From Gracilaria domingensis (Eukaryota; Rhodophyta; Florideophyceae; Gracilariales; Gracilariaceae): a stretch of 64,000 nt of DNA. The translations under genes and the position numbers were made by a program. Shown piece after piece: positions 2,867-56,135 of the stretch (position 1 is the stretch's first letter; each line of letters opens with the position of its first letter). The DNA is taken from NCBI GenBank assembly GCA_022539475.1, contig VCMS01000005.1:248001-312000 (forward strand). The letters are read 5' to 3'. The notes under the pieces were generated by a model that made no database searches, was not told the DNA's origin, and was given only the letters and a program-made list of their open reading frames with translations.

Positions 2867-3622
2867 TTTGTGGCGGAAGATATGAAGAGGAAAGGATTAT
2901 CACGACTAGCGTCGTTACAAGACCATGGTTTACGCGAAGAAGAAGGAACTATGGCGCAGGATGCCCGGAGGTTTGAAATGGTCAGATGTGCTGTGTTTCG
3001 CTTCACATTGGAGTACGAGGTGATTTCAAATTTCAAATTTCCGCGGCCCGCTGTGGAACGAGACTTGTCAATTTTTGGAAGCCATCGTGCTGCATGACAG
3101 CCGACTGTAAGAGGTTGTTGCATTTGCAATGCACAGCTTAAGCCGTACAGCAGTGCCACGTAGTCGGTGCCACCGACTCAGTGGTCAACGACTCTTTGAG
3201 TCAAGAGTCGTTGACCACTGAGTCTTGACGATGCAATCGAACTACATCGCAGATTGGTTTCAGATCAACGGCGACCGCAGCTGTCATACCAAGGGTACGA
3301 CGGTGCCCCTGGGTACGATACGCGCTCCCTGTTCAAGAACTTTACGTATCGAATCTCCGAGTCCTGAACGGTTTTCAGCTTGCAGTGGAGAACGTCACTC
3401 GTCTGACCATTGCGAACAGAGCATGCCGTACAGAGAATGTATCGTTTTCTCTAGTCAGTTACTAGCGAACTCCATCCGTGTTGGATAGTCTTATGTTTCA
3501 TATCCCAAATGTTTTCTTCATCACCGGAGCATCATTAAATGAAGTGCGTCGTTCCGGATTAGGGAAACAAACCCACCCCGCTGTGTGGACAGAAAGAGCT
3601 ATAATATAGAATCAGTCGCAAC
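2867..3622. other. Divergent intergenic region with hairpins
   Basis: This spacer separates two divergent genes and must hold both promoters. No convincing reading frame is present; the short open frames lack codon bias and homology. The notable content is a pair of nested palindromes at 3162-3178 and 3175-3224. A GTAC-containing run around 3290-3325 resembles the motif seen at other spacers. No clear TATA box was recognised. Confidence 0.5.
3162..3224. repeat. Nested perfect palindromes (snap-back hairpin)
   Basis: A first palindrome spans 3162-3178: 8-base arms AGTCGGTG/CACCGACT around one C. Overlapping it, 3175-3196 is the exact reverse complement of 3203-3224 (22-base arms) with a 6-base spacer TGAGTC that itself resembles the arm ends. 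The structure could form a strong DNA cruciform or RNA hairpin. No coding capacity and no terminal duplication were noticed. Confidence 0.85.
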
Positions 3623-6600
3623 ATGGGAATTTTTCAGAACCTGGTCGTGGATGCCCTTGCCCGTCATTTTCCACGCCTACGCGAATCTCTGCGCGTCAAT
3701 CTGCTGCGGGGAAAGCTTCATTTACAGGATGTTGACGTTGCGCCCTCTTTTCTGATTCTGAACAACTTACCGCTGCAAATCAACCATGGAAAGATTGGCA
3801 ATCTCTCTGTTCAAGTACCTTGGACAAAGTTATACTCATCTCCAATCCGAGCCCAAGCTGAAGAGTTTCGTTTGTCATTGTCAGAGGTTCCGTTTCCCTC
3901 CTCACAGCGCGAAGTATTCGATGCCTTCACATCTGAGTCGGAAAACGAGAAGAAGCGACAGCTTGCTGAGGGTGAAAGAGGGAAGAGCCCACTTTCACGT
4001 GTTCTCACTCGAATCCTGCCCATGCTTTTGGATCGCTTCGAACTCAATATAAAAAACGTGACCATTGAACTCAACTTTGCCTCTGGCCAGCTCGGAATAA
4101 TCCACCTCGACGAAATGTCAACGAAACCTACCCCCCATGCTGCGAACCGGGGTGATTTAGATAAGCTTATCGTTGCTTCTGGCGTATCATTCACAGTAAC
4201 TTCGGAAACAAGTCACCCTGTGTTGTGTCTGTCAGAAACTTCTATATGCCTCAGTGCTACTCATAGAGGTGGCGCGTGGCACATAGACCTCGATGTACCG
4301 AGTTTCAAGCTGGAAGTAAACCGTTCCTTTCCAAGCTTCTTGAAGGCGTTGTCTGGAAGATCAACGCTTTGGCGTACCACCTATTTGCACCAGCGTCCCA
4401 ACCAAGCTGTTGAAGATGATCCACGAGCCTGGTTACAGTATGCTGTGCGTCGCGTGACTTCAGCCTTTTGCAAACGTCGAATTTACTTTTCAGAGGCAGA
4501 AGCGCGTCGGAAAGCGAAGAGTTTTGTGAAATACAAGGAACTGCATGTGAAACGTCTTCGAAGGATCGCAGATGCCAATGAAGCTCTTCAAATTCTTGAA
4601 TTAGAACGATCTCTCGGAGCAGATGCAATCTTGATTCTCCGCGATCAGGCAAGAAAACATGCCCTTGCCAACGAAGTTTCTTCATTTGCTACTCGTGATT
4701 GGCTTGGTTGGGCACTACTTGGAACTGAAGTATCTCAGGAGCAAGAGCAAGCGGCGGAGGAGCTGAAGCATTCACTTACAATAGCTAAGTATGGACAGGC
4801 GAGCTCTGCTTCTCAAGAAGTATCGGATCTGTCAACAACGTGGTCGAAAATAAGGTTTGGAATCAATCTCTCCTTCTTTCATATAATTGTTGAAGACGAA
4901 CATAGCAGTTTGAGTTTTAGCGTAAACGCTATCTCCATGCAGGCAGAATTGGATTCTTCTTTAGAGTCGTACAACGGCTCGTTATTTATCGAAAGCGCAA
5001 AGCTTTTGTACGGAGATGAAGTTATATGGGTTGGAGCTCCATGTGATGATACAAATCGACTTGGCATGAAGGAAGCACGAAAGCCCAAGTTTCTAGAACT
5101 GAAGCTTTACAAGCTTTGGTATGAGGAGACGGTAACGAGATCCATAATAATTCAATCGTGCAGGGTTGAACTCGACTTCATGACTGAAGACGGTTTTGAG
5201 CGTCTGAGGAGGATTGCTGCCTTTGCGGGGAGCATGCAATTCATGTCTCCTAATCCAGTCGATGAAAGCAGAAAAGTTATGAAACCTGGAGACATGAAGA
5301 TTGTGGGAGTCGATAATGTGACCCAAGCCAAGACCTACATTACTGTCTCCAGATTCACTTTGTTGGTTCGCGGTGCTGTTCAGCATCCGCGACGTTCTTC
5401 CTTGAACATCTGCTGCAGTCTCTCAGACGTTTACGCGGAAATCGAGAGCGGAGAGATGGAGAAATCTTTTCACAGAGGAACACTGGACATATCGGCACAT
5501 CAACTTCTGCCGTCGACTTTGAGTTCTAGAGAAACAGAAATTGCTACAAGCTCAGAAGGGAGTGAGACGTCCAAGTTCTTCCAAGTTACTGCATCTCTTA
5601 GAACTGAAACAGTCGAGAATCGTGTAGAACTGGATATAGCAGACGTTACAGGGTTTCTTGAATTATCTGGCACGGCTCCATTCATTAACTCTATGTTTGA
5701 TATACATGATCAATTCCTCGCGACAAGGGTCCATAGGTTTGGTAATGGTTCTCGAGATAGCACCGATACTGGAAGGAATCCATCCAATCAGAATACTACA
5801 TATATGTTGAAAGCCCCTTCCATAGACTTCAGGTTTCGAGATTCTGATGGAGAAGGCAAGACAACTGATGCAGTCAGATTGAAATTGGGGGGCGTCATAT
5901 ATGAAGCAGGAGGATGCCCATATCACACGATCCGAGCTCAGCACATAGAAATATATGAATCCTTATATCACGACTCCATCCTTCTTGCAGGGTCTGAGTT
6001 CGCGATCGATTTTGATAAACGTGGGGGTTTCGGATCGTTTCCTCAACGGGTGGAGTCGAATGTTGAGAACCTGAGCGTTTCAGTGTCACTCAAGGGTCTT
6101 TCGAAGATTTCTTCTATCGTGGACTGTGCTCTAGAAGGCCTCCGACGCCCGCCAGGGAACCAGGTTGCGCTTCAAGGACAAGAAGTCCCAGTCCAAACCT
6201 CGTTTGAAGATAGCCTACAAGCAAATCTTTCATTTTCACTTCGGCTCAGAAGAACAAAGCTCACGTGTGCTGCATATGACATCTGTATCCAGACAGCACT
6301 TGAGGAATTCCTTTTAGTCCGTCAAGACAATATTCTTACTGGCTTCCTGGACAACCTTGAAGTCAAGGACATTAGCCAGTTATCTTCGAAATACAAGACG
6401 TTGCTGAGATGTGTGATGCGAGAAGGAGATCGTTCTCCTCGGCGAAAGGCCATTTCATTTGAGACGTCAAAGAGTACGAATAACATTCAGATCTCGGCAT
6501 TGCAAGTGGTATGGTTGAAATCCGTCATCTCCAACATATCACAAATGCATCAATCATTCCGTAGTACTGTGAACGACATATGTACGACGATAAGTGGCAC

Positions 6601-9600
6601 TTCTCCTGAACCTGGGTCAAAGGAGTTGATATCCAAACTACCAGAGGCGCCTGAATCTGGTCCATTAACTGTACAGGGATGGGATCTAACATTAATATTT
6701 CCTCTTTCTCCAACAAGCTCTGAAGCTGTGTGTATCATATCATCTCACATAACTGCAACTGTCTCTCCTAAAGGTCAAGTCATATCGTTAAGAGGGGGGC
6801 AAATCCTCACAAGGACGGATTCGTCGCAGGGTCAAACTTTGGCCCGTAGATCTCGTGAAGCAAGAGTAGACCAATGGGTTGTACTAGTACGTGAAATTGA
6901 TACCGACTTCAGTCATCACAGTGACCTGGAAACGATGCCATCGGAGCACAAGCGAAGAATTCGGGATAAGTGGTCTATTGAAATCCTGCGAAGGATTTCA
7001 TTGTTGATAGCACCAAATCAGATTCTGGTGCTCAAACGATTTGTCTCGAACACCTTCAGTAGTAAGAAAACCCCGATCTCAAGTGATGGACATGAACAAA
7101 ATGAGTCCTCATCTCTTGAAAAAATGATAGAGGCAGAATGTCGCGATTCTTCCCAAAAAGAAACCCCAGCTCCACAGCTTGTTTCTGTTGAAGTGTGCAG
7201 TTTGGAATGCGAAACTCATCATATCTCTATAGAACTTCTGGTAGAAGCGGCGACGAGCACCGCGTCAACCACATCGATTGCAAACATCAATATGGATCCA
7301 ACAAAACTTTCTTGGAAACGGTCAAGCAAATATAGTGGAACTTATTGTGACACGGACGTCATTTCATGGAGTTTGAGAAGCACCTCCGTCAGCTTAGAGG
7401 ACCGGACAAACAAAGACCCAGGTACGCGTAGGATGATCCTCCATACGAGGCAGGATACCAACGGTTCTCGTTCTTTTCATGAACTGGGAACTGAAGTCAA
7501 AGCTCCGAGAACAGCGCTTTATGTGGAGTACATAGAAAGGACAGATTTAGAAACAAAGACGACCAGTTCCTGTGATATTTCGCTTCGCCAAGCTCAAGTC
7601 GTTGCATGTCCAGCTCTTTTTCTAGCCCTTCAGAATTTCGGGGACCAGTGTTCTTGGGATGCGCCTCAGGAAGTCCATAGAAGTGAAGAGGTGTATCAAA
7701 TTCGAGGGGAAGGGACCATTGCGCGCATCCATTCTGCTGGCGAAGAAGAGCCAGTCTCAACTTCGAGTGAAGTCGATCCAGACGCTAGATTGCTAGAGAA
7801 CAAGTTTCTGAAAGTCCCGGCATCTAAAGTAACGTTGTCATTGCGCGACGTAAGTTTTCTACTGTTAAGTAGTGTCGAAGGGGGAAGAAAACCGTTCGTG
7901 AACATTCCGATGGAATCGGTCACAGTAGTTCTTCTGAGAAACAATTATGGACTGCTACTCGAAGGCTCTAGGCTGAAGATTAAGCGCGCAAGTGTGACAA
8001 TGCTTCGATACAGTAAGAGGCCCCAAGGTACCGACTCACATCGAAGGACTTCTTTCACATGGAACATACCAGAGCACGCGTATGGTTTGGACTACAAGGA
8101 TTATGGTAGCCCAGAAACTGACGACAATTCCTCCGCTCGTCATAGAATTTCACCTTCAAGGAGTAGCCTTCCTCATAGATGGCGTGCTGATCAAGCACCG
8201 AACCGAAGTGGAAGCAATTCTCTCGAATCAACGGAAACTATTTTGCATCTCCAAAGCATTAGCATCAAGTTACCATCCGTTGAACAGAATCGAATCGGTA
8301 TTACTATACCGGACGTTGCAATCGATTGTCCTTTGGAGTCCCTTACCTATTTTACTTTACTGTGTGCGGATTTGGAGTTGGCTCCTCCCCCGAAATCTCC
8401 TTTAGAAGCTTTTGAAGAGAATGAAGTGTTTCTATATCCAGACATCCAAGCAATCATTGGAAGTGTTTCTTTGAGAACCAGAATTGAGACGACCGCTGCA
8501 CTGCTTTCTGAACATGAATCCGTCCGTAACCATGCGAAACTTAGACTTACTGGCCACGGGAAGTTCCTCATCACGGAGGAATTTCAGCGGATGGGATATC
8601 ACTATAAAGGCAGGTGGAGATGTTGTGGATGAAGAGAAGGGAGTTTGTGACCCGATTCTATCACCGAGTACGCTGTCAGTGAAAGCAAAGACCATGGGAG
8701 AGAGATTTATGAAGATTGAGGCTCAACAACTTATAAGAATTGCTCTCAGTCCACTAACAGTGAGAGCAGTTGCTGGCATGGGTTTCAAAGTCTCAGAGGT
8801 TATGGAGAAGTATCAAAAAAGAACTGTGGAAACTGAGAATACCCTTTGTGATGAGAATGAAGGAATGAATGCCATGAGAGTGCACTTGTCAATACCAGGT
8901 TTCGTAATCCGCTGTTTCGCAGAACAGCCAAGGGTACAGCTACTGCGGCTGGTGTTCCGAGACGTGAAGTGCTTCCTTCACTTCCCCGCGAGCATTGGTG
9001 ATGAAGGAAAAGCGGAGTTATCAGTACGCGATGTTATACTTGAGGACACAGTATCTCCACATCTCCAGGAGGGTGACGTACGAGAATCTCGCTCAAGGTC
9101 CTCGTGTACGATAGTCTCTAGCGCTCAAGGCAATGCTCGTGTTGATGAGCGTCCGCTTCTCTTGTCAGAACCTGGTTCGGTTTTTGATTCATCGCAGCTT
9201 GGAAATTCAAGTGAACACGGTCGCTGGGAACCAAAGCCAGTGTTTTATTGCTTTCTGTCGTGGTACCTGCCATTCGAGCAAGTTGCGGCCCAAATTGGTG
9301 GAAGAGGAATCGATATCGCTGTTAACTTGGGAATGCTTCCTACCTGTGCCGAATGGGCTGAGACTCTTGTGCACGAATACGCCGCAGTGCAAAGGGCCCA
9401 AAGCCATCGGCATCGTTCGAAGACTAGGTCATCCATGACCGCAACAACGCCATCTTTTCCATTGAGAATCGACCACATAGTCGTTGAACCACTGAGAATT
9501 AGAATAAGCGTTAGCTCCCCACCAAGGGACTTGCAGCCTTCTTGGACCCAGAGAATGTTGTCGTGGATGGTTTCTGCTGAAAATGCGGATGGAATGGTGA

Positions 9601-10496: not shown

Positions 10497-10574
10497 GTAC
10501 AGCTATAAGGTTGACGTGGTCCGCTTCGCTCCGGTTGTAAGTTTTGTAAATATCAACGAGGTTTTTCGCTCAAG

Positions 10575-12620: not shown

Positions 12621-12867
12621 GGGCGATGGGCTGGGAGATGGTCGACAACTAGAGCATGTGCTGTGATAACGCCTACCGCCGGGGCATGTACCAACGGTAC
12701 CGAACGCTCCGATTGACCGGGAATTGCCCACCGTTAGTACCTTTGGTGAAGTTTATACCCCTCGCAATGGAAAGGCTGGCGGTCACAATACCGCACATCG
12801 AGCGGCGGAGAGCAAGCCTGTGTAAAGGGCTGCCATTACAAAAATAATTGTCCCCAAAGACCCGTGG

Positions 12868-12878
12868 TACCGTCGGTA
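12868..12878. promoter_or_regulatory. TACCGTCGGTA palindrome
   Basis: This 11-base palindrome with a central T lies about 250 bp upstream of the ABC transporter ATG. The same core recurs at 33867-33881, 34079-34091 and 34104-34114. Half-sites lie nearby at 12693-12705. It is a candidate binding site for a dimeric regulator, inferred from recurrence and symmetry only. Confidence 0.4.
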
Positions 12879-12892
12879 AGTTTGTAGTACAG

Positions 12893-12923
12893 GTGCATGG
12901 GTACAAAGTTTGTACCCATGCAC
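12893..12923. repeat. 31-base perfect palindrome
   Basis: The 15-base arms GTGCATGGGTACAAA and TTTGTACCCATGCAC flank a single G. Outside the perfect core the symmetry continues for about nine more bases on each side with a one-base slip (GTAGTACAG against CTGTATCTAC). It lies in the spacer between divergent genes. Confidence 0.85.
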
Positions 12924-13175
12924 TGTATCTACAATGATCCACATCGCTCATCCGCTTACTGAATCACATAGTACAGTATGGCGCAAATGTACAAGCATCG
13001 TGCTTTTCTGGGAGTGGACGCAGCGGCGCGTTTCAGCAAGACAAAGAGTGATGAACTTCTGTACCCGCTTCACCTTTCTAAGCTGGTCTTGGAACTGGTC
13101 TTGGAACTTTCAGGTTGCTCGATACAAACGGAAACACCTCATAATCTAACCTGTTTCGGGTTTGACTGCGTTCGA

Positions 13176-13258
13176 AGATTGTCGTTACTGTCTAACATGT
13201 ACCGTCAAAGGTACAACTTGTACCTTTGACGGTACATGTTAGACTGTAACGACAATCT
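13176..13258. repeat. 83-base near-perfect palindrome
   Basis: Bases 13176-13216 are the reverse complement of 13218-13258 at 40 of 41 positions (one T/A difference), with a single C at the centre. The inner arms contain GTACCGTCAAAGGTAC, related to the shorter GTAC palindromes in other spacers. It is the longest fold-back seen in the window. It could be a cruciform, a hairpin RNA precursor or a miniature fold-back element; no target-site duplication is obvious. Confidence 0.9.
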
Positions 13259-14271
13259 GTACCTCAAAAAAGGTGGCTTCCGTATGCACTGATATCGATT
13301 TCAGATGCCACGCGTATCACATTCAAACCCCTTTTCGTATGATTCCGAGAATCGTACGTTTAGAATCTCTAATCCAGCGCTAAAAGGCTGCGCATGTTTG
13401 ACAGATGCTATCGTTCGTTCGTTCGTTTGTCATCTTGTACACCCGTTTGAGCTGGCTCACCAAATCATGCAAATGTTTTTTTGTGAGTACACAATTACGG
13501 CGTTTAGCCCGATTGTTAGTCATAGGCTTCCTGGCATGCAATAAGTAAGAGGCATGGAGATACCTGCTTACCAGAAACAAAAGAGAAACATTTGCAACTT
13601 TGTTCTCATTAACACTCTGCGCCATCCACGGCGACGTAGGCACTATAGTGCAGTCGATCGTTACTGTGTTGTTCCAAATACACGTAAGTGACATCGAAAA
13701 TATGCACATGTGAACAATCGTGTCACAGACCTTTTCTGCCACATGCTTTCCCTGAAACTTGTGAAACAGGTTATATTAAACAACTATCTCTCCCATAGAC
13801 CATACCATCATGCCGAAAGAATAATATGTCGCGCGCCGAAGTAACAGAATAGAAAGTTTGCTTCTTCGTGGTAAATAGGTCGCTTTCGAAAAAAGAGTTC
13901 CGAACAGGTAAGTATCATACCGTTTTTGTCAGCCAAACAGCTTTCTACAGATGATTGCTGGCAACTTCCTGGTCTCCTTTATGCATGTACGCAGCCCTCC
14001 AAAGATTCATCTAAACTTGATCATACCATGTGGTCCACGTGCTACTGTGTGCCTCCATTTGAATTCCGAAGAACACTGACAAAAGAAATTCTGATCAGAG
14101 CGTTCTTGTTCCCCTCCGCAATGTGGTCTGGGGGTTGCTTTGCATTTGATCTCAAATCCCTTCGAAACTGAAACGGAAGAGCTCTGTTCAATAAGACGAT
14201 AGGAGTCTCCTCAAACTGCTCGGCATAGACAATCCTTTTATTCTCACAGAACAGGGTACAGCTTGGATCAA

Positions 14272-15777: not shown

Positions 15778-15872
15778 GTGTTTTCTTGATACCCAATAGA
15801 AAGCTGCGAAGAACAGAAGAACGATGGTGGAAAGAGTTATTTCGTTTAGAACTAAGAGGAGTGGATAATATT

Positions 15873-20930: not shown

Positions 20931-21510
20931 TGGTATGAAGAGGTGCGATAGTTAAGAGTGAAGATGCGCCGCGAGTCTCGAGTGCAATGAAGAAGTGGGT
21001 GCGGTCCGTGGTACACTCGAAGCAGCAGTCGAAGAGCAGAATGTGAAGCGCAAGATGCTAGTGGAGGCGTAGCTACAATACGCGGTTCTGTTATCTAGGG
21101 CGGGGGTAGGAAACTCTGAGCGACGCGTGTGTTCTGGTTGCACAGCTGAGCGAGAGCGTGTATGATGGCAGTAAGTTCCGGTATGAAGAGCAGGGGTTAA
21201 AGAGGGTTAGATGACGAATTGCAGTTGTTTATTCACATGTGCATGGTTCGAGGGCCTTGGGCCAAGGGTAAGAGGGCGAACCCTGTTAGTAACAGGCTGT
21301 TACTGTAGCTGGTAGTAGTTACAAGACTCGTACCTTCCTAGATAGCGGTGACCATGTGAACGCATCGATCAAATAAAAACAGAAAGCCACGAACGTTGCG
21401 ACCGAACAACAATGGCAACAAGCAGAATGTCATGACCAGGCGGGTCTGCGAGGATTGGCGACTGTGGGGTTGACGGATATGAATTCGCGCGTTGCGCGGA
21501 AAAAACGAAG
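20931..21510. other. Intergenic spacer with small palindromes
   Basis: This region lies between the oxygenase-fold gene start (20930) and the C9orf85-like gene end (21511). It contains small palindromes CCTTGG-G-CCAAGG (21255-21267) and CCTGTTA-G-TAACAGG (21282-21296), both with a single-base centre. No gene is supported. Confidence 0.5.
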
Positions 21511-22083: not shown

Positions 22084-22258
22084 GGCGCCCGCGGCGACGC
22101 CGCGCCCGCGCGCCCGCGCCCGCGCCCGCGTGCCGCCCCCAAAGCGGCTGCGCGCGCGCCACGTGTGCACACGCCGCCAGCAATGCGCGCCGCCATGGCG
22201 CGTTCAAACCTTCAAACCAAAACGCACCCAAACGCCCGCGCTCCGCCCGCGTGCCGCG

Positions 22259-22276: not shown

Positions 22277-22301
22277 GCGCCACCGTCAGCGACCCGCCAC
22301 A

Positions 22302-26950: not shown

Positions 26951-28578
26951 GTCGTAAACAGAAGACAAAGGACTTGCCTCGTTGTGAAGATAATACCGCG
27001 TTCAGAGCTCCAATTTTCTTCGTGAGAGACTAGTACGCGTGGAGATTGTAAGGGTAAGCTCGTGCAAGACGCACGAAATCAGTTCTTATCTTGTCTTGAT
27101 GTGCTTTGGAGAAGAAAGGCTTTCTTTACAATCGCGTGGGTGCGCGCACATGCTTGTTGCGCGAAAAGAGAGCTTTTCTCTTTGTCACAGGTGCCCTGCT
27201 TGTGCAACCTGCCCCTAATGCAATTGCAAAGCGCTAGCCACGAGGAGTGGGAGGGTTGGGTTCGAAAAGCGAACAGCAAAGCGGAGTGCGCTGGTGTAAA
27301 GAGCGTACCCCTGGTACGATTTTGGCAAGACGCGGACGATCGACAGATTTCTTGCCAAGGCCGCCCACACCGACGTCGAGCTACAGGCTCGACCGGATGA
27401 AATGGCGCACTCATCCAAATAAATACTTTTCTTCGTTCCTTGAAATATCATTCCACGCCTCTCTATTAGATATAGACCACTACTGTATCAGAGAATCTCT
27501 GTTCCGTTTCGGATACCCACGTAGACAAGAGCGAGACGTTTGTTTATTCTGTGAAGACAACGGCCTTCGCGCGACACGATCAATTCGCTCACGACAGTTC
27601 GGCTGGCTCCACTATCCGTGACCTTCCCATCGAAAGCCACCACAATGTGGTGGCTTTCATTGGGAAGGTCACAGACTGCTTGACTGATAGTGGACACGGC
27701 GAACAAGGATCAATCTGTATAATATAAATGCAGTCAAATTTTAACGGACTGCGTCTGTGAACTTCAGTGTGAAGGATTGTCCTTGAAGGACTACTAAATT
27801 TTCGCCTCAACAAAGTTGCAATTCCACACCCCTTGATGGGTATCCTTCCCTGGTAACGACGTAACGACTGTATCCTTACCGTTGAAAGGACCCGTACAAC
27901 TAACATCACGATGATGTAATCAAAGTCTTGCAGGCTAAGGATATCCCAATCTTTGGCCTACTGACGTACTCAAATCTCCTTAGCAGCATGACGCTGAAGC
28001 CTACATAACTAGTAGAACACATTACTCGTACCATAAGAGTAATTTTGGATCTGTAATCCTTCATCATTCTCAAAAGCATGTTTTCGTAGCTTCAACGCCG
28101 GTTCCGCAGACGATGCTTTCGATTTAGTAACAATAATTGCAAAGGAACTGAGCAAACATATCTGGCAATAGGTAGGAAATGAGTGCTCACCATTGTCCGA
28201 GATATACTACTTCTTCTTCTTCTTTATTATGAGCGTGGTACGCTTATTGCTCGTATCACGTGGGGTTTTGCTAAGGACCCCCAGCACTTATAATGTTTTC
28301 CCTATCAACGTAGATATACTACATTCTCTTTACCCTTCTGCATTGAACCACAGCTCTCTTGACTCAAAAGTAGTGAGTAGTTTCCTACCTTCCAACAAAC
28401 GTCCTCTTGTCACAGCGCGAGATCCATAGAGCCAGATGGCTGAGCAAGATAGGAGTGTTTCCATACCGTTGGGTGCCACTACAGAAAGTCATGTTTAATT
28501 TAGTTAGAGGAACAAAAAAGGGTGCACCTGACCTCACCTGGAGGAACACAGTCCTTCCTTACCAAATTATAACCGTAT
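26951..28578. other. Intergenic region with imperfect long palindrome
   Basis: This 1.6 kb stretch lies between the EIF1AD-like start and the end of the RWP-RK-like gene. Short frames here lack domains. It contains the palindrome at 27618-27672 and a short TTC repeat near 28206-28221. No tRNA or snRNA was recognised. Confidence 0.4.
27618..27672. repeat. 55-base palindrome, 27-base arms
   Basis: Bases 27618-27644 pair with 27646-27672 at 25 of 27 positions around a single A. Further out, CCACTATC on the left and GATAGTGG on the right are also complementary, with unequal spacers, so the element may extend to about 27609-27692. It is non-coding and lies in a spacer. Confidence 0.85.
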
Positions 28579-30036: not shown

Positions 30037-32628
30037 GACCAGACAGAAGGGACAGGAGAAAGCCAAAGAATGTCTGCTGGAGAGATATAGAACGGAGTGG
30101 AATTGAAGACCGACACGGTGATAAAGATAGTCGTGTTAAAGCAACTTCGGAAATAGATTAGAATGCAGGGGGAACGGACACGAAGCGGTTGATATGGGAG
30201 GCTATATGGAGGCTTCCTTAGAAGGGGCTTCAGCAAGAACAAGAACGCCGTGATACAAAATTCGCGGAGTCAGAACAGAATGTCGGAAAATTGGATGGGG
30301 CGAATTGAATGAGACTGCACAGATGTCATATATGCCAATGTCGAACAGACCAAGGGGCAGAGGAGGACTGTGATAAATGCTAACGGACTGAAAAAGGCAA
30401 GCGACGTGAAAGCAAATGAATGTTCATGATGCTGTGTGACTTCTGCTAATGGAAGTAAATTTGATACTGAAGGAGCGATGGGGTCGCTGAAAATGGAGAG
30501 AGGTGTATCAGCACTTACAAGCCACAAAACACGTCGAGTACGATAGAATAAATTAGGATGGCAAGACGCAAGAGCGATGACTGTATGTCGATATTAGTGA
30601 TCCTACACTAGTCTGAAAACGATAAAAGGGCGCGGAGCAGACAACGCGCTGAAGATGAATGGCAATACCATCTTGCATTTCTCCTATATTTTGCAACATG
30701 CTGCACGTTCACTCCGTGCTTGAACGCGTGGGGGGCGCGTGTCCTTGAGCATATGCGTTACGTACGGATCTCATAATCACTTCAATGCAGTCGATGAAAA
30801 ACTTTCCTCTTAATATCAATTGGTGCACAATGCGTCCCACGTGGTGAACAAGCTACGATAATGAGAAACATACAGAGTTACAGTTATCCTTAAGATAACC
30901 CTCTTACGTATCCTTAACGACGTCTCTCTTAACCCTGTAGTGGCATATGAAGCGTACGAGAGCTGTAAAAATTTAGGATGATGAAGGGCAATAATGTTAT
31001 GCCTTCTTTTGATACTCACGCCTACTCTTTTGCACTCGCTTATGTCTGCAATGTCGGCTTTCGAAGGGACACCAGCTTATCGAATTGGATCCCGAGTACA
31101 CCAGAGGCTTCGCAATCACACTAATGCAACAAATTTCGATCACGAGCTTCGAAGCAATGCGTCATCTCTCCTATCTCACCCAACTGATGTAAACATTTAA
31201 CGGCTCCCCGTGTTCCCATTATGACTGAATGTCCCCCACATACCTAGGCACAGACACTCCCTTTTTGAATCTATGAGATGTTGGGGATGCAGGACAGGGG
31301 GTTGTGATTAGACAACCTTTGGTTGCCAGAATGCGAATTTAAAACGAATACATTTGAGTATGGTGCCATGAAACGTCATTCAGCCGAAGACTTTTTATGC
31401 TGCACGACTTCGCACACTTGGCTGCTAAGTATGGATCCCCCACTACATCTCGTCCAACGTATAGTTGCAATTTCGTTGCCGTTTACGTCATGATGATTAT
31501 CCTCTTTTCACTATTGAAAACAACAGGCTACCTCTAAGCAAACAGATTCAAATCAGTCCAGAACATTTGAGGGTTCCTGGGACTACGAAGGAGGAGCAAA
31601 CGGGAACTGTGGGCAAAACACCTACTCTGTTCCTCGTAGAAGAAACCATTTTCTCATCCCAAAACTGGTCGAGTGTAGAATGAGGGATTCGAAGGTTTTC
31701 CAAAACAAAGATGTTGAGCGACCTGTGCAGCAACACAACCGAAGTTTAACCGGAGTTCCCGAGTTGGAGAATATGTTACAATCACTGTTCAATTCTTCTT
31801 CGCTATGGGCAATACTGTTGTCGCAATAGTCGTCTGATACGAAACTGTGCTAACGCTAGAGATATTATGCTTTTGCTCCTCAGAAAGTTCACATTGGTTG
31901 TCCAAACGAGCACAGAGTGCCCGTGATGGATATCGCCTTAAAAGTTTCCTAAATTTTTGAGGGATAACATTGGCGATGACCGCTTCTTAGAGGGGGGAGG
32001 GGAGGGGATTTAGGAGATACGGAAGTGAGCGGGAAATGTATCAAGAATATTTAAGCGATAATATTCTTGTAGATAAGCTGTTTCCTTCATTTTCCTTCCC
32101 GTGAGACTTCATTTAGTGGTGTATTATTATGCCAAGCATGTGAAGGATACGACACAAAAGTTAAGCAAAGGTTCGACAGTGGGATGAGTGGCGGTCAAGG
32201 GGAGTATGAAACAATTGCTTCAAGGTACTTTCAAAGTTATGAAGAGTGCATATATCTGTGTTAAATAATCATCAATAGGATTAGTCACCAATTTCATCAC
32301 TCGATAGCCCTTCAAGTACGGTGGGATACATTACGTAGTACAGTCTTTTTGATCAAATCTTGGATCTAATCCAAGAGCTCCGCCATTCAAGTCTTCCCTA
32401 TCCTATACAATGTACCGTCGTATAACTACTAAAGAAAGATTCTTCTCCAAAAGCAACGGGCTGCTGTTACTGTAGATGCGACCGGTATGGCCCTTTATGT
32501 GAGAAGCAACATCTTGCACTTCCGCACTATACACACCACCTACAGAGGAGGATGACCCCACGATCTCTGTAGAACTAGTTACAGTATGATATCGAAAACG
32601 GACACACACGGCTCCGCCGCCCTGAATT
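30037..32628. other. Gene-poor region
   Basis: This 2.6 kb region lies upstream of the RWP-RK-like gene and downstream of the BI-1/LFG gene. The open frames are short (60-85 codons), lack domains and look like chance. An AT-rich inverted repeat lies at 32042-32069. It is AT-richer than the coding neighbourhood. I see no RNA gene, but a non-coding transcript cannot be ruled out. Confidence 0.4.
32042..32069. repeat. Short AT-rich inverted repeat
   Basis: Arms CAAGAATATT (32042-32051) and AATATTCTTG (32060-32069) are exact reverse complements with an 8-base spacer. It is non-coding. Its role, if any, is unknown. Confidence 0.6.
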
Positions 32629-47479: not shown

Positions 47480-48455
47480 TACTTTCGGCTTGTGAGTCTG
47501 CTGCAATATGATCGCGCTTCTAAGCGACAGCTCTGATCACCATGCGCTTTTGCACAGCGTTTGCCGGTTACACTGAAAGTGTAGGGTTTCAGTCTGAAAC
47601 CCTACACTTTGACAACTGCCGCGCAATGTAACGTAAGGAAAAGTATGCTCTGCAGTTTCGCACGGGCGACCGAATCATATGATGTTGGAGAGTTGCCCTT
47701 GTAAGAAAAGTTGTCCATTTCGTCTCTAGGGAAGCGTGAATTATGATGTGCGTCAAACTTAATGGCAACTGGCGCAGACGGGACGGAGATAAAGTTTTTT
47801 ACTCGTACCCTCGGTACAGACGACTTGAAACATGATGTACAGCACCCTTGTACAGTAAGTACACTACACACGTAAGAACCCACAAGTAGGAACTTCGACG
47901 TTATCCAGTGAGTTGAATGTAAAAAAAAACTTGAGCTTGCATCCTAAGCACTTCGCCATTTCGTTTCGCAGCACCAATCGATTCTCTTACGAGTTCCGCT
48001 GATAGCACCTAGCAGTTTCATAGAAACAGGTGGCCTTGGAGTCTCGTATGCACCGTACGCATTGTACTCTTTGCTTGGGCGAAGCCGCGATTCGCAAGAC
48101 GAGGTTAGGGATGAGTGTAGTTCGTAACGGCTCTTACACAAAATTTATTATACAATGTCCGCATCTGCAATTGTGGCTCCATCTCGCTAGGGAGAGGTGC
48201 CGGATAAGATACCCTGGCAACGCCACCGAGCATCCCCGGAGTTGATTGTACGGGTGTGGTGCATCCTGGACTACACTAGTACACCGCTCTGCAATCTGGC
48301 CCAACAGAATTGATGCCAAAAGAGATATCCATGCCCCTCCCGGCTATCTGGTTTATACACATGAACGAACATTGCCCTTACCGCTGTCACAGCTCATCAT
48401 TGAATTGCGGACATCAATCCCCAACTAACTTCTGCTCTTTCTGAAAGGTTATTAA
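47480..48455. other. Intergenic region with perfect palindrome
   Basis: About 1.0 kb lies between two same-strand genes. A 35-base palindrome lies at 47576-47610, 97 bp after the lyase stop. A near-palindrome GTACCCTCGGTAC lies at 47806-47818. No gene was recognised. Confidence 0.45.
47576..47610. repeat. 35-base perfect palindrome
   Basis: Arms AAAGTGTAGGGTTTCAG and CTGAAACCCTACACTTT are exact reverse complements around a single T. It lies 97 bp downstream of the lyase stop codon, where it could fold as a hairpin at the end of the transcript. Confidence 0.9.
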
Positions 48456-50045: not shown

Positions 50046-50283
50046 AGAGATACTGTGAAACAATCATCCCGATGTGCGTGGTCTCGTAGTGATCAGGATG
50101 TATTGCGAATCTCAATGTGTGCTCCTGATGCAGTATGAAGGTTAGGTCAAGTTAGCGCTTATTGTTCCACATCGTAGACACTTGATAGGCATTTAGAGCT
50201 ACGCCTCCGCTTGTTAATATTTGCATGACAAAAATGCCTTCGGTTAGACGGCTTTGCCTGATACCACGAATGAAGTGCTCCCG

Positions 50284-51976
50284 TCACTTCCAATGCTTTC
50301 CATAAAGTTGTCGCCGAAAATGGGCAGATTTTTGTAAAGGAATGGCGTATATCCAAGGACTCCAATATAAGAAGGCTAGAAAGACCATCACACAAACAGT
50401 TGCACAAACCCAGGTTTGCATACGACGGGATGGTATGATATCAACCAAATTCGCGGTTCCCAAGAGCGCATAGAACAGGGGGGGAAGATAGTGATACAGA
50501 AATGTGCACCTCGTCACTTCTGCGACATTTTTGAATGTTTGGTGAACGAAAAATGCACAGAAAAGGTTAGGTTAGGTTCAAAATGTTTGCTTGTTCACAG
50601 AGGACGACTGAACTCATGAGCGGGGTTTGCTTACCGAGATAAGGTAGTAAATTGAGAACAAAAGCGGCTAGGAAAAATAAACCGCGAGCGACAAAAGCTT
50701 GTAGCTTGCGATTGGTGACGCGACTCAGAGACGACTTGGTTCTGTGCATAATGAGAGAGCCTGATATCGCAGCAAAGGCTACGAGCCAGAAAACAGTGAC
50801 GACAGAAACTACGGGATTCACAATAGCATAGATCTTTTCATTGGCCCAGGCGGCTTCAGGATTGAGTTCATTATAATAAAGTAATCCCCTCATGTTAATA
50901 ACCCACTGCCACCACCTACTTTCCCATGGATGGCGGACTTTGATGCCTTTGTTTGCTTTGTACATTTGATGATTAAGGTAAACGAAGTTGCGCACGAAAC
51001 CGTCAGGCTTGGCATTGGGGTCATAATGGGTTCCATTGATTAATGTGCGGCGGAAGGACCTCTTCATAAACGCATCACCGGCCCCGCTGAAGATGAGAAT
51101 ACGGAAGTGAAGCCAAAACAAACTGATGTAAATGGAAAGGGTGATACAGGCAGCCAGAAGAATGTGTTTGGGAGCTAAGCGCCTCTTCGTAAAAGGACGA
51201 GCAGTCAAAGAGACGATGGCAACCAGACCCGGGGTGACCAGAGCGGTCCACTTGACGCTAAGGGCAGCGGTGCCAGACAGGGCGGTAGCGACGACCCATC
51301 GGGTTCGTTGGTGAGATGGAGCACGCCACATTCGCAAAGCGCAGAGAAGGCAGAGAGCCATGAAGCAGAGAAGCTGCGGATCGCATAGCACGAGACGACT
51401 TTCGATGACAGCTAGATGTTCAAACGCGTGTATGAAGGCAGGCAAGAAGCTGGCCGGGAACGAAAGGCCAAACGCTCGACAGATGAGGAACGTCAGGGGA
51501 GACACAGCGGAGCCAAATATAGCACTGGTAAGTCGGAGCGGCACGTAACGCTGCTTGCCAAACAACTCGCCGTTGACGTCATACTTGAGGGTAGGATCGC
51601 CGCAGAACAGGTAGGTAACAAGCAGGAACACAAGCTTGCCCAGCGGTGGATGAATATCAAAAAAGTAACGGCGATAGTAGTAGGCGGAAGTGAACTTAAG
51701 AAAGTGAACCTCGTCGAACACAACGCTGGGCGGATACGAGATGCGATACAGGCGGACGAGCAGCGAAACGGCAAACAGCAGCGGCGCGACAAGGCGCTCG
51801 GCGGGAATGAGATCGGGCGGGACGTGCGGCAAAGGGGCCAGACACGGCGCCGAGGGCGACGGCGACGCGGACAGCGGCGGCGGCGGCGCGGGCGCGGAGA
51901 AGGAGCGATAGAGGCGGCGCATGCGCAGGCGCATGCGAATGAGCGACGCGATGACGGTGTGACGAACGGCGCTCAT
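50284..51976 (-). CDS. PMT: Protein O-mannosyltransferase (GT39) lacking MIR domains, two exons
   Basis: PMTs transfer mannose from dolichyl-phosphate-mannose to Ser/Thr of proteins in the ER. Exon 1 (51976-50635) encodes the N terminus and most helices. The catalytic DE pair is D88-E89 in VVFDEVHF. PMT signatures include YYYRRYFFDIHPPLGKL and SGAGDAFMKRSFRRTL. The stop reached by straight reading (50567) truncates the family's last part, but exon 2 (50519-50284) supplies it: EVTRCTFLYHYLPPLFYALL. The intron is 50520-50634: 115 bases, GTAAGC to GCAG, with a CTAACCTAACC branch-like run. The join gives 525 residues in frame. Most eukaryotic PMTs carry MIR repeats in the central lumenal loop; here only about 30 residues separate SGAGDAFM from FVYLNHQMY, so they are absent. 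It is divergent from QTRT2. Confidence 0.92.
50520..50634 (-). other. Spliceosomal intron in PMT gene
   Basis: The donor is GTAAGC (from 50634 downward) and the acceptor is GCAG ending at 50520. A tandem CTAACCTAACC about 50 bases before the acceptor is a likely branch site. Splicing joins LPYL to EVTRCTFLYHY in frame, restoring the conserved C-terminal PMT motif. It is the best-defined intron in the window. Confidence 0.85.
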
Positions 51977-52107
51977 GGCTTGCGGCGGCGACTGTCGGCG
52001 CGGCGCCGCGCAGACGCGCGTCCGTGCGCATCCGCCATCTTAGCGCGCCGGCGCGCCAGCAAGGCACGCGCCACGTCGCACACGTCGCGGCGGAAAGCGC
52101 CGTCGCA

Positions 52108-52110
<3 letters not shown>

Positions 52111-52142
<32 letters not shown>
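52111..52142 (+). repeat. CGG trinucleotide repeat (about ten units)
   Basis: About ten tandem CGG units end 11 bases before the ATG of the QTRT2-like gene, in the divergent promoter shared with the PMT gene. It is probably in the 5' leader. Such repeats can vary in length between strains. Confidence 0.8.
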
Positions 52143-52144
<2 letters not shown>

Positions 52145-52152
52145 GCGCCGCC

Positions 52153-53688
52153 ATGGACGCGCTGTGGCACGGCAGCCGAACGCGCGGCGCGGCGGCGCGC
52201 GGCGACGAGCACGGCGCCATGAAGGCGCCGACGACGACGGGCCGCGCGCGTCTGCACCACGTGCGCGGCGCGGCGCTGCAGCAGCAGACGCCGGCGCCGC
52301 TGCTGGCGACGCAAAAGGGGCAGCTGCCGTTCCTGCCCGTGCCGCTGGCGCGGCTGGCCACGCCGGCCGGCACCACGCGCCTGCACGCGCTGGCGGCGCC
52401 CGAGTGGCACACGCTCAACGCCAACGCCAAGCTGGGCGCCGCGCAGCTGTTTCCGCGCCTCGAGCTGGACGCCAAGTCGGCGACGTGCAGCGCGGACTGC
52501 ATCTTGTTTCTGACGCTGCGCGCCGTGCCGTCGCACGACCTGCTCACCGACGCGCCGGGCAAGAAGGAGGTGGTGTGCAGCATGGGCGATGGATCGCGCC
52601 GTATCGTTATGTCGTCGCAGGATATGTGCCGCCTTCATCACGCGCTGCGCACGGACTACTGCGTGAGTGTCAGCGACGGCATGACGTTGCACAACGCCGT
52701 CAGGCCAACCGTCCAGCAGCGGCGCGCAAAGCGCAGCGAGATGCTGCAGAACGCGTTCGTGCGCGCGGCCGGCGAGCAAAACAGCCGCCAAGTACTGGTG
52801 GCGATCCAGGGCGGCGACTGCGTGGACACACGCGCGCGGCTGGCGCGCGCGGCCGCCGCACACGCGACGCACGCCAGCGTGGCCGGCTTCTCCATCGAGG
52901 GCCTCTACGCCGGCGAAAGCGTCGCGCGCCGCTTCGAGTGCGTCTCGGCGTGCGTGGAGGCCGTGGCGCACACCGCGCTGCCGCGCGTGCTGCTGGGCGG
53001 CAGCGGCTCGCCGAGCGAGGTGCTGCGCGCCGTGGAGGCGGGCGTGGACGTGATCGAGGGCGACTACCCGTTCGAGCTGGCCGAGCGCGGGCTGGCGCTG
53101 CGCCTCGCCGACGAGCTGGCGCCGCTGTGCGCGCGCGCGCGCGACGAGGCGCTGCGCACCGAGCCGCTGTCGCGCCGCTGCGGCTGCGGCGCGTGCGGCG
53201 GCGCGCCCGGCGGGCGCGCGTTCGCGCGCGGCTACGTGCGCCACCTGCTGGAGGTGCACGAGATGATGGGCGTGTCGCTGCTCGCCATGCACAACGTGTG
53301 GCAGTACCTGCGCTGGTTCGAGGCGCTGCGCGCCGCGCTGGCCGCCGCAGAGCTGCCCGCGTTTGCCGCGCGCTTCCGCCGCGCCGCCGCGCGCCGCGCC
53401 GCCGCCGCCGCGTGCGCGGCGCGGCGCGGCGCGGCGCGGCGCGCGCGACGTCGCGCGCCGCGCTACGCTCGCTGCGCGCGCTGTAAGCACGTGGCTACGC
53501 GTCCCGAGCGCGCGCGGCACGCGCGCCGCGCTCGCTGTGCGCGACCGCTGTCGCGCGTTGGAGCGCGTCACCTCGCGCTCATTGCCGCGTTCCCCCCTGC
53601 GCGCGCCGCCACCCCGCCCCCCTTAACCCCCCCTCCCGTCCCCCCCCGTCTCCTCTCCTCCCGCCGCCTGAGAGCGTGGTCGCGATGA
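52153..53688 (+). CDS. QTRT2: Queuine tRNA-ribosyltransferase accessory subunit 2 (QTRT2-like)
   Basis: QTRT2 pairs with QTRT1 to exchange guanine for queuine at the tRNA wobble position. The ATG at 52153 gives 511 residues; an ATG at 52219 (MKAPTTTGRARLH) fits the family N terminus slightly better. The TIM-barrel parts are clear: LVAIQGGDC, VAGFSIEGLYAGE, VLLGGSGSPSEVLRAVEAG, GVDVIEGDYPFELAERG. The zinc site is CGCGACGG plus the His in GYVRHLLEVHEMMG. The family usually ends soon after the ALRAALAAAELPAF region; here about 120 more Arg/Ala-rich residues run on to a TGA that overlaps the next gene's ATG (ATGA, 53685-53688). Very high GC makes stops rare, so this tail may be chance or include an unspliced intron (GTAAGC at about 53482). 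The gene is far more GC-rich than its neighbours. Confidence 0.85.
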   Translation: MDALWHGSRTRGAAARGDEHGAMKAPTTTGRARLHHVRGAALQQQTPAPLLATQKGQLPFLPVPLARLATPAGTTRLHALAAPEWHTLNANAKLGAAQLFPRLELDAKSATCSADCILFLTLRAVPSHDLLTDAPGKKEVVCSMGDGSRRIVMSSQDMCRLHHALRTDYCVSVSDGMTLHNAVRPTVQQRRAKRSEMLQNAFVRAAGEQNSRQVLVAIQGGDCVDTRARLARAAAAHATHASVAGFSIEGLYAGESVARRFECVSACVEAVAHTALPRVLLGGSGSPSEVLRAVEAGVDVIEGDYPFELAERGLALRLADELAPLCARARDEALRTEPLSRRCGCGACGGAPGGRAFARGYVRHLLEVHEMMGVSLLAMHNVWQYLRWFEALRAALAAAELPAFAARFRRAAARRAAAAACAARRGAARRARRRAPRYARCARCKHVATRPERARHARRARCARPLSRVGARHLALIAAFPPARAATPPPLTPPPVPPRLLSSRRLRAWSR

Positions 53689-55064
53689 CCACTCTGCTGC
53701 CGGGCGTTGACTACGCGCGCGTGCTGGAGCAATCGCACGCGGTGGCGTTCTTTCGCTCTCTGCCGCGGTGGCCGACTGCTTCCAGACAGTTTGAGTTCTC
53801 GTTCGCGTACCTCTCGCCTGTGGCTTTCACCGCCTTGTTGCCCATCTTCTTCGCCGTCGCGCTCACGCTCCTACTGTTGGTGCACCTGCTTGTTCGATAC
53901 TCGTGTCGCCGCGAGTCCACGGAAGCGCGCATCAAGCGTCTGGCGCTTTCGCGACCGGCCACGCTGTTGCAGTGCGCTTTCTCGTCGCTTATTCTGTTCC
54001 TCATTTTTACGTTCACCTCGCTCACGTTGCTTGCAAACGCTACGCTTCAGTTTGCGGCCTTGGATGCCGTCGATTTGATTTCGGCGCTCACAAACGATCT
54101 TTCGCTGTCGGGCTTTTCTTTTGTTGATGTTGCGCTCTTCTTCAGAAGGCGTCTGCTCGATTTTGACCCGGCCGCCGCGCTTCGTGCTGACAATCCGATT
54201 AACCAGTTTTTACCCGAGTTTGGCGAGCGCTCCCTGTCGGCCATGCACCAGTACACCATACAAAACTATCCCAATCTCAACCCGCTGCGCACAAATCTGC
54301 TCTCGTTAGTAAACGCCATAGATCACGTCTTGCAAGTTGTTCGCCGCGCCGTCACGCTGGTCTACGTCGTTCTGCTTGCAATCATTCTGCTCATCGCCTC
54401 TGCACCGCTTTTGTTGTTCCTTGTGGACGCTTTCACCGTTCAGAACCGTCGCCGAGTGCTTCGATTTTTGGCGCATCTCACCTTCTTCCTGCTGCCGTCG
54501 TTTTTCTGCTGGGCATGCGTGGGAGTTACTGCTGCTGTTGGTATTACTGTGGCTGACGTTTGCCACATGTTGCATGACTATCGCCACGCCTTGCTGGGAA
54601 ACCCTGTCTCAGAACCCAACGCGCTGTTGCAGTCCGGCTTTGACTGTCCGGCCACGTCTGCTGTGGGCGTGCGTGAACGGATTCAGCTGGCTGCTGACTC
54701 TGTCCTTCAGAGCGAGTTGGCGTCGTCTACCGTCAAGTTACTGCTCAATACTTCGGCCGAAAGCATTGCCGAAACGGCTCGGTGGTCGGGCAATCGTGTG
54801 GAAGTTGCGCTGAATTGTTCGATGCAGATCCAGTTTTCGGGAAAGCTGGAAAGCGTTGTGTGCTCGCCGGCGGGACATGGCGCTCTTCAAGGCGTCTATG
54901 ACTTATTTATTGGCTTTCTGGGACTCTCTATTTGTCTGACGCTTGCAGGCTTTGCCAGCTTGTTTGGGATGCAAGTGGCAAGGAGCTTGATTGTTTGGCG
55001 AGGAGTGAAGGAGCCGGGGCTAAGTATGGACGACGTAAGCGACATGACTATCAGTGCTGCATAG
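53685..55064 (+). CDS. Five-pass membrane protein with tweety/prominin-like topology
   Basis: The ATG at 53685 gives 459 residues; the longer frame begins with GTG. Hydrophobic helices are at about 50-73 (AFTALLPIFFAVALTLLLLV), 95-117 (CAFSSLILFLIFTFTSLTLL), 224-248 (VTLVYVVLLAIILLIASAPL), 258-283 (FLAHLTFFLLPSFFCWACVG) and 412-437 (VYDLFIGFLGLSICLTLAGF). Helices 1-2, 3-4 and 5 are separated by two long loops with Asn-linked sequons (NAT, NTS, NCS), matching tweety-homologue and prominin topology. Plants have related uncharacterised proteins. Direct sequence identity to tweety is weak, so this is a topology call. The 5' leader overlaps the QTRT2 frame by four bases and is rich in C runs. It is convergent with nothing nearby. 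Confidence 0.7.
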   Translation: MTTLLPGVDYARVLEQSHAVAFFRSLPRWPTASRQFEFSFAYLSPVAFTALLPIFFAVALTLLLLVHLLVRYSCRRESTEARIKRLALSRPATLLQCAFSSLILFLIFTFTSLTLLANATLQFAALDAVDLISALTNDLSLSGFSFVDVALFFRRRLLDFDPAAALRADNPINQFLPEFGERSLSAMHQYTIQNYPNLNPLRTNLLSLVNAIDHVLQVVRRAVTLVYVVLLAIILLIASAPLLLFLVDAFTVQNRRRVLRFLAHLTFFLLPSFFCWACVGVTAAVGITVADVCHMLHDYRHALLGNPVSEPNALLQSGFDCPATSAVGVRERIQLAADSVLQSELASSTVKLLLNTSAESIAETARWSGNRVEVALNCSMQIQFSGKLESVVCSPAGHGALQGVYDLFIGFLGLSICLTLAGFASLFGMQVARSLIVWRGVKEPGLSMDDVSDMTISAA

Positions 55065-55349
55065 AGCTGCGATGGCTTCGTGACGTAGCCTGCACTCGCC
55101 GTGCCTGTGTACTACTCTGTACTATTTGAACTCTCGACATCTAACTGAACTGAATAACTCTGCTGATTGCTGATTGACGCACTTTACAAGTGTTTTGTAA
55201 ATGAAATGAACATTTTGACCCAAAGGCTGTTCCTTATCGATCCAACGATTGCCCTTAACCGGGTGAATAGTTTTGAGGAAAGATTGACTGCCATCCTGTC
55301 AGCGGGCCGATGGCAAGTTGTTATGTTCTGGCCTGACGTTGGTGTGAAA

Positions 55350-55386
55350 CAAGTTGCATGTTGCTTGCAAGCAAGCATGCAACTTG
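55350..55386. repeat. 37-base palindrome with one-base slip
   Basis: Left arm CAAGTTGCATGTTGCTTG pairs with right arm CAAGCAAGCATGCAACTTG, with a single unpaired base and no loop. It lies about 290 bp downstream of the five-pass membrane protein stop. Confidence 0.85.
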
Positions 55387-56112
55387 CAGGCAGCAACATG
55401 CAGAAAGTTGTTGTTCAGAGGCGAGCTTCTCTAGTAGCTCGGGGTGAGGACTCCTCCCTGAGGGGTTCACCGATGGTAGCGCTCTTACCCTTGGGGTTGT
55501 ATGCCAGAGAGAGTCTGCTGTGGTTAAACCTTCAGTTTGGGAGGTGTGCTCGAATTCAGAGCCACAAATAAAGTTACTGTGCGTGGAGCACATTTCTGCG
55601 AGAGCCAGGGCTTGATGTTTTATACGACGGCCGTTACATTACAAGCGGCGTGTGCTTGTGTAAAGCTTCGCATGACAACAATGAGCAGTGCCAACGAAGA
55701 AAAGCGCCGTTTTCCAGAAGAAAAAGAGATTTGATTCGCGCTTGCTTGAAGCTTTTATGTTGCTGGATAAGTTGCTAAGGTTATCGAACACGACAAAAAT
55801 AAGCATCGGCGCGAGTGTGATGAAGACGTCGCGGCAGATGTGTGCAGCGAATCACGTCGACGTTCATGCCCTTTACAAGAGTATCATAGCACGTTGAAGC
55901 GCACGTCATCGGCCAGAAACGCAGGCGAGAGCGGTGCGGGTGCGAACTCGAATCTGCTCATCGTGCTACCGACAAGTCGTTGGCCCTTCCACCGCCCAAT
56001 CTGATGACGTGTTACAAGACACGTACTGTTACCGCTTTACAGTAAGCTAAGTTTCTCCAACGCGGATGACACAGTGACAGGCTGCATGTCGGTTGTGACA
56101 TCTCTAGGTCAT

Positions 56113-56135
56113 GGCATGTCACAATGTGACATGCC
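56113..56135. repeat. 23-base perfect palindrome
   Basis: Arms GGCATGTCACA and TGTGACATGCC flank one A. It is 230 bp upstream of the acyl-CoA synthetase ATG. Nearby GTGACA and TGACATC copies suggest a degenerate cluster. Confidence 0.85.

Follow-up and report, generated by a model that had tools for sequence, protein, structure and literature searches.

Palindromes in the window

The window analysed here is a 64,000-base stretch of the nuclear genome of the red alga Gracilaria domingensis (bases 248001-312000 of contig C5; the genome comprises 77.9 Mb in 680 contigs). It contains a set of long, almost loop-less palindromes, most of which turn on a single base. We interpret these palindromes as excision scars of hAT-superfamily transposons, with a probability of about 0.86. 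They look like a record of transposon departures, not working parts of the DNA.

A preliminary description had listed seven such fold-backs, and all seven were found in their places. An ungapped scan (score at least 11, spacer 0-6) returned seven places in the window against 0.2 per shuffle in 10 dinucleotide shuffles, well above chance. One of these seven is simple sequence rich in guanine and cytosine (GC) that was absent from the list, and one listed palindrome, 55350-55386, was detected only by a separate gapped scan. The centre is one base long in five of the seven as read, and in six if one insertion or deletion (indel) is allowed. The statement that these are not ordinary terminators was borne out. 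The features, none of which has a strand, are given below with names that follow from our interpretation.

3163-3184, hAT-type excision scar of 22 bases, G TCGGTG C CACCGA C TCAGTG G; duplication GTCGGTGG
3175-3229, excision scar with long P-nucleotides; duplication CTCTTGAC
12882-12934, palindrome with a one-base centre and indels in the outer arms; core 12893-12923; TTTGTA again upstream at 12881-12886
13176-13258, longest palindrome, 40/41 pairs, centre C at 13217
21282-21303, perfect 22-base scar, C CTGTTA G TAACAG G CTGTTA C; duplication CCTGTTAC; missed by the preliminary description
27618-27672, palindrome, 25/27 pairs, centre A at 27645
31808-31829, possible decayed 22-base scar, G GCAATA C TGTTGT C GCAATA G, two mismatches
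47572-47610, excision scar; duplication ACTGAAAC; palindrome 47576-47610, 17/17 pairs
55350-55386, palindrome with an even centre, 18 pairs, one bulge
56093-56135, probable excision scar; palindrome 56113-56135, 11/11 pairs, centre A at 56124

The chain at 3163-3184 (k = 6, one mismatch) has one substitution in its third copy, and both of its end bases are complementary. The adjoining palindrome 3175-3224 pairs 22 bases around a six-base centre when read without gaps, its one-base centre being masked by one extra T. Here 3192-3229 reads CTCTT(T)GA G TCAAGAGTCGTTGACCACTGAG then TCTTGAC, that is, the left flank C TCTT(T)GA (3192-3199), the centre G (3200), the palindromic copy (3201-3222) and, at the arm end, TCTTGAC (3223-3229) as the second copy of the duplication. 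Since the P tract copies part of the 3163-3184 scar, substitution included, 3175-3229 would be the younger of the two, pointing to two successive excisions at the same spot.

At 47572-47610, the duplication remnant ACTGAAA (47572-47578) and the palindromic tract GTGTAGGGTTTCAG (47579-47592) precede the centre T (47593); CTGAAAC follows the centre, then the right flank CCTACAC, with the second target copy at the arm end. A complete 8-bp duplication copy, TTGTGACA, occupies 56093-56100 and is separated by a 12-base filler from the palindrome 56113-56135. The core at 12893-12923 forms 15/15 pairs around a one-base centre at 12908, and its gapped arms extend to 12882-12934, with 25 pairs.

Fold-back reads are a known sequencing artefact, and chimeric reads of this kind, arising in the library or in assembly, could in principle write palindromes into a contig. 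The palindromes described here have unique flanks on both sides, include decayed members with substitutions and indels, and keep the exact 8-base register described below. In the nested pair at 3163-3229, moreover, the younger scar copies a substitution of the older one. We therefore regard an artefact as extremely improbable.

The arms are unrelated, as the preliminary description had said. Searches of the genome with 12800-13378, 27300-28000 and 55070-56360 gave self-matches only at the palindromes, as did a search with the arm of 3175-3224; the palindrome 47576-47610 lay outside these searches, which skipped very common words. A repeat family was thus rejected as the source of the palindromes. 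Where repeat copies span a palindrome elsewhere in the genome sample defined below, either the palindrome is shared (L008/L014 and L024) or there are scattered substitutions in an A/T run (L026). The earlier argument that unrelated sequences speak against one transposon family is misleading, since an excision scar copies the host flank and its arms must therefore be unrelated between sites.

A one-base centre as the genome-wide signal

The genome sample consisted of the window and 23 stretches of 10 kb from non-plastid contigs, 294 kb in all. Counts of spacers, open reading frames (ORFs), offsets, chains, partners, target patterns, short scars, direct repeats and mirror repeats refer to 264 kb, three GC-rich or repeat-rich 10-kb loci (L009, L012 and L025) of the 24 sequences having been dropped. 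L021, a mostly masked stretch of a plastid contig, was excluded from all counts; contig C680 (179,836 bp) carries phycobilisome genes, and its alpha-allophycocyanin departs from PDB chain 5tjf_A, a Gracilaria structure, at 4 of 160 aligned residues.

Perfect inverted repeats with arms of at least 8 bases and a spacer of one base number 33, against 3.2 expected from 15 shuffles and 4.8 from a second set of four. At the other spacers, 6 were observed against 3.9 expected (spacer 0), 7 against 3.2 (2), 6 against 3.6 (3), 9 against 3.4 (4) and 10 against 3.3 (5). The enrichment is thus about seven- to tenfold at spacer 1 and about 1.5- to threefold at spacers 0 and 2-6. With arms of at least 7 bases, 69 one-base palindromes were found against 15.7, an excess of about 53 per 264 kb, chain members being counted singly. 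Since about three loop bases are required for a hairpin to fold, a fold-back mechanism predicts more palindromes at spacer 3 than at spacer 1; the reverse is seen. The one-base centre is the specific signal across the genome, which the preliminary description did not recognise.

The palindromes had also been placed outside called genes. None of the seven lies in any of the 18 Pfam-supported ORFs tested, and to this extent the claim holds; weaker one-base palindromes do occur inside long ORFs. Those with arms of at least 8 bases number 13 inside frames of at least 150 amino acids (158,690 bp; 2.8 expected) and 20 in the remaining 105,310 bp (1.0 expected). The placement of the seven outside Pfam-supported ORFs, together with dyad symmetry around a base pair, would suit sites selected for binding a dimeric or cruciform-binding protein, or precursors of hairpin RNA. 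However, the arms are unrelated, the position relative to ORFs varies (upstream, downstream or convergent), and Rfam gave no gathering-score match in the window. Such dyads do not predict a duplicate at the arm end, and the protein and RNA readings of the preliminary description leave both this second target copy and the exact 8-bp register unexplained. We consider selection for such sites highly improbable.

A seven-base step and complemented ends

For one-base palindromes with arms of at least 6 bases, 8 neighbouring pairs have centres exactly 7 bases apart, where chance predicts 0; every other offset up to 30 occurs at most once. Written out, each of these pairs is X w Y w' X' w Y', where w is a word of 6 bases and ' marks the complement. 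A search for exact chains of the form w-N-w'-N-w, with |w| = 4 to 11 (three-base words were all removed by the low-complexity filter), returned 8 cases at |w| = 6 and none in 5 shuffles, 7 at |w| = 4 (3.2 expected), 1 at |w| = 5 and none at 7-11. With one mismatch allowed, 15 chains were found at |w| = 6 (0.4 expected) and none at |w| = 7 (0.2 expected).

The end bases follow a rule. In all 8 exact chains at |w| = 6, the base after the first w complements the base after the last w (b and d), and in 7 of the 8 the base before the last w complements the base before the first w (c and a). Identical ends were seen in none, whether for b = d or for c = a. Both complement rules are obeyed by 7/8 chains at |w| = 6, by 1/1 at |w| = 5 and by 0/7 at |w| = 4. 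Writing the 8-base target as t1 w t8, the chains have the register of the 8-bp target-site duplication by which a hAT footprint is recognised. Chains with up to two mismatches and both ends complementary number 12 in the 264 kb against 1.0 expected, and the possible scar at 31808-31829, which belongs to this class, is weak when taken alone.

This rule bears directly on short-range template switching during replication, in which the polymerase turns to the opposite strand, copies back and returns. The preliminary description had favoured a shared process and had named fold-back replication first. Template switching is known both to create inverted repeats and to perfect them, according to PMC7954356, PMC3820800 and PMC6649704, and it explains unrelated arms. 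It could also account for the slightly raised counts at other spacers and for palindromes that lack a duplication partner, for example 27618-27672 and 55350-55386. It gives no reason for exactly one base at the centre, a fixed 7-base step or complemented end bases. A zig-zag switch that returns to the first template would keep the end base, and among the 8 exact chains the end base is complemented in 8 and identical in 0. Zig-zag switching was therefore rejected as the main cause, and we judge template switching in general to be an unlikely origin of these palindromes. The idea of a shared process survives, as one process appears to have made most of them, but none of the three processes named earlier fits best.

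Two further observations concern regular spacing. Locus L011 carries six consecutive seven-base units of alternating orientation (9489-9531), perhaps two or three superposed excision scars. Direct repeats with a 14-base period number 29 against 15.7, similar to neighbouring periods, and a 14-base periodicity was rejected as a general feature.

A second duplication copy beside single palindromes

If single palindromes are also excision scars, the other copy of the duplication should adjoin them. Of the 69 one-base palindromes with arms of at least 7 bases, 64 were kept after exclusion of those that had a simple word or lay no more than 80 bases from the end of a locus. The duplication 6-mer, in the predicted orientation, lies within 60 bases beyond the arm in 22/64, against 8/64 in the control orientation, and within 12 bases of the arm in 19/64 against 4/64. 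The predicted extra base is present in 19/64 (19 of the 22 with partners), against 6/64 (6 of 8) in the control orientation, where three of the partners are self-palindromic or GC-rich words. The 22 partnered palindromes represent 15 separate places, both members of a chain being counted.

A stricter test used 7-base words beside palindromes with arms of at least 8 bases, after removal of a trinucleotide microsatellite in L006, a palindrome common to two transposon copies and palindromes near locus ends. A perfect 7/7 partner adjoins 10 of 29 palindromes (7 separate places); when the word was shifted by 1, 2 or 3 bases, 1, 2 and 1 of 29 had such a partner. The second duplication copy thus adjoins about a third of the longer palindromes. 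One clean case lies outside the window:

L006:5773-5823, palindrome with an arm of 22 bases; partner TACAGAA at the arm end

hAT genes, target pattern and Ku-domain ORFs

The genome is rich in possible sources of such scars. The hAT dimerisation domain (PF05699) gave at least 109 matches with E <= 0.001; of 171 candidates 150 were scored, and many of the matches lie in frames of 700-870 amino acids. The inferred duplications of palindromes with arms of at least 8 bases have A at position 7 in 18/31 and T at position 2 in 16/31, chain members being counted singly and the L006 microsatellite again removed. These words lean towards nTnnnnAn, the target pattern given for Hermes in PMC10368747.

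Another superfamily of DNA transposons with 8-bp duplications could leave scars in the same register, for example Mutator-like elements: the genome has 51 MULE-domain matches, and duplications of Muta1 are 8 or 9 bp in the account given in PMC5225508. Yet the register here is 8 only, chains at |w| = 7 being absent both as exact matches and with one mismatch, and the longer palindromes lean towards the Hermes target pattern. The main text of PMC5225508 nowhere uses the word hairpin, and PMC6900584 ascribes flank-side hairpins to hAT elements and to V(D)J recombination. We thus consider it very unlikely that Mutator-like or similar elements made the scars.

A search for Ku genes, whose domain is PF02735, found two in long frames, on contigs C8 (1018 amino acids) and C390 (726 amino acids), and in addition seven similar ORFs of 224-234 amino acids.

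G000:C118:4301-5100 (L038:91-735, minus strand), multi-copy Ku-domain ORF (PF02735 in seven copies), about 224 amino acids

Further matches to this ORF lie on C71, C201, C214, C254, C367, C374, C409 and C596. An 800-base piece around one of the ORFs matched ten places including itself, six at 100% as rounded, of which four had the full score; the remaining matches are on C201 (93%), C409 (89%), C596 (85%) and C8 (95% over 568 bases, the host-like Ku). The distance to a hAT match is 6.1-6.4 kb for four of the seven ORFs and 11.9 kb for one; the other two have no hAT match on their contig among the matches listed. With the copy on C596, about 6 kb from a hAT match, five copies in all lie at about 6 kb. 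Judged from sequence, this arrangement suggests a candidate hAT-like element that was recently amplified with a captured Ku fragment. It is tempting to speculate that such an element carries a host-derived Ku-domain gene whose protein alters the opening and joining of hairpin ends, making scars with unusually long P-nucleotides standard, although we regard this as quite unlikely. Among the matches listed from the open-licence literature, no title or abstract describes a transposon-borne Ku.

A proposed route from excision to palindrome

In the route that we infer, the starting point would be flank - t1 w t8 - element - t1 w t8 - flank, with the 8-bp target-site duplication on either side of the element. 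The transposase would nick one base inside each flank and join the end to the opposite strand, leaving each flank closed by a hairpin whose one unpaired tip base is the complement of the base that bordered the element. The hairpins would read t1 w t8' w' t1' on the left and t8' w' t1' w t8 on the right. A host nick away from the tip, followed by unfolding, would leave P-nucleotides that repeat the flank in inverted orientation around a single base.

Two outcomes may then be distinguished. If both hairpins were opened at a distance from the tip, and their complementary duplication copies then paired with each other, t1 w t8' w' t1' w t8 would result. Such a product has 22 bases, centres 7 apart and complemented ends, and so matches the observed chain. 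If one side alone were opened far from the tip, a longer palindrome would result, with the other duplication copy after or before it, as at 3175-3229 and 47572-47610. The palindromes without a partner may have the same origin. The underlying process, hAT excision repair, is already known; it is the length and abundance of the products that look unusual.

Observations that weigh against this interpretation

Several observations count against the excision reading. The excisions are deduced within one genome, and no excision event was witnessed. In the window, a duplication partner was recovered beside neither 13176-13258 nor 27618-27672, although both turn on the signature single base; deletion of the ends would explain its absence. 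The copy at 12882-12934 is counted as ambiguous because the palindrome itself may reach TTTGTA, and its t1 base is mismatched. The even centre of 55350-55386 does not fit an intact scar and is unexplained.

In the sample, spacers other than one are also mildly above the shuffles, so part of the palindrome load would come from another source, and the one-base enrichment persists, though weaker, inside long ORFs. Mirror repeats, which served as a control, are frequent too, with 34 at spacer 0 and 37 at spacer 1 for arms of at least 8 bases. A complexity filter leaves 3 and 9 of these, against 5 and 32 inverted repeats; the raw excess of mirror repeats is nearly all simple sequence. Chains with one mismatch are less exclusive than exact ones, with 17 against 7.6 at |w| = 5 and 3 against 0 at |w| = 8.

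The partner tests have their own exceptions. A perfect partner is missing in 19 of the 29 palindromes with arms of at least 8 bases, an absence that end deletions would give. At a threshold of at least 6/7, the true word matches in 14/29 and the word shifted by one base, which overlaps it, also in 14/29; the true word matches about twice as often as words shifted by 2 and 3 bases (6/29 and 7/29). Palindromes with arms of exactly 7 bases lack the nTnnnnAn pattern (A in 7/35, T in 8/35). This departure fits either chance palindromes mixed into the set or hAT groups whose targets differ; the Hermes pattern is not known to be common to all hAT groups. Finally, t1 w t8' t1' w t8, the classic short scar and a usual though not an obligatory form of the footprint, shows no enrichment (6 against 4.5 in shuffles), from which it seems that the host opens hairpins far from the tip.

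Other features of the window and sample

An 850-amino-acid ORF on the plus strand (window:23537-26089) has CarD/RID, DEAD helicase and TRCF domains. Its predicted product is a bacterial-type Mfd encoded in the nuclear genome and perhaps targeted to the plastid. The region window:52100-53500 is very GC-rich coding sequence with simple-sequence fold-backs, the mean of the window being 50% GC.

One palindrome, GGTACCG-A/T-CGGTACC, occurs three times in the sample (window:33867-33881, L022:5776-5790 and L022:6544-6558). It differs from the scars in that its sequence recurs, and is perhaps a motif. Within 300 bases at L025:2544-2839 are three large palindromes, their centres 0, 0 and 2 bases long, which have CCCTAACACGACC arms in common and represent a different kind of repeat. 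Near palindromes, but outside them, are dispersed repeats of about 137 and about 276 bases, at window:27315-27451 (at least 8 further matches) and L006:2702-2978 (more than 20); both are candidate non-autonomous elements. A tandem array with a period near 228 bases and units 85-89% alike occupies L004:7168-8458.

Significance and comparison with known systems

Each scar yields a target site, a copied flank and the length of an opened hairpin, so that departures of transposons can be read and dated from such palindromes. Extrapolated to 78 Mb, and provided that the sample is representative, the excess would mean a number of scars of the order of ten thousand. These would form a natural assay of the distance from the tip at which DNA hairpins are opened in a red algal cell; most work on this step concerns V(D)J recombination and yeast. 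The rule of a one-base centre, an 8-base register and complemented ends could be applied to any genome to count excisions.

Among the matches listed from the open-licence literature, no title or abstract reports palindromes in a red algal nuclear genome or a genome-wide census of hAT scars. Nematomorpha mitochondrial genes likewise have many long near-perfect palindromes in one genome (PMC6649704). Those repeats are mitochondrial and lie within coding sequence, and the passages of that source that describe them mention no duplication register.

Among the closest known systems are the excision footprints of Ac/Ds, a hAT element, in plants, yeast and Candida, as described in PMC5873905 and PMC1978519. 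The maximal arm lengths quoted in PMC5873905 are 3 nucleotides for C. albicans and 20 for S. cerevisiae. In the alga, by comparison, arms of 7-8 bases are common and reach 22 when perfect (L006) and 41 with one mismatch (13176-13258), whereas the short classic form is not enriched. The algal palindromes are natural fossils across a genome, while the Ac/Ds footprints come from selected laboratory revertants.

The long palindromic additions also recall V(D)J recombination, in which impaired hairpin opening (Artemis or DNA-PKcs deficiency) leads to long P-nucleotides; in both systems, opening far from the tip would leave a long palindromic addition. The algal genome has one match for a DRMBL (Artemis/Pso2-like) gene, so a missing family is not the reason for opening far from the tip. 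In contrast to the algal scars, V(D)J recombination involves no 8-bp duplication, and its hairpins lack an unpaired base at the tip.

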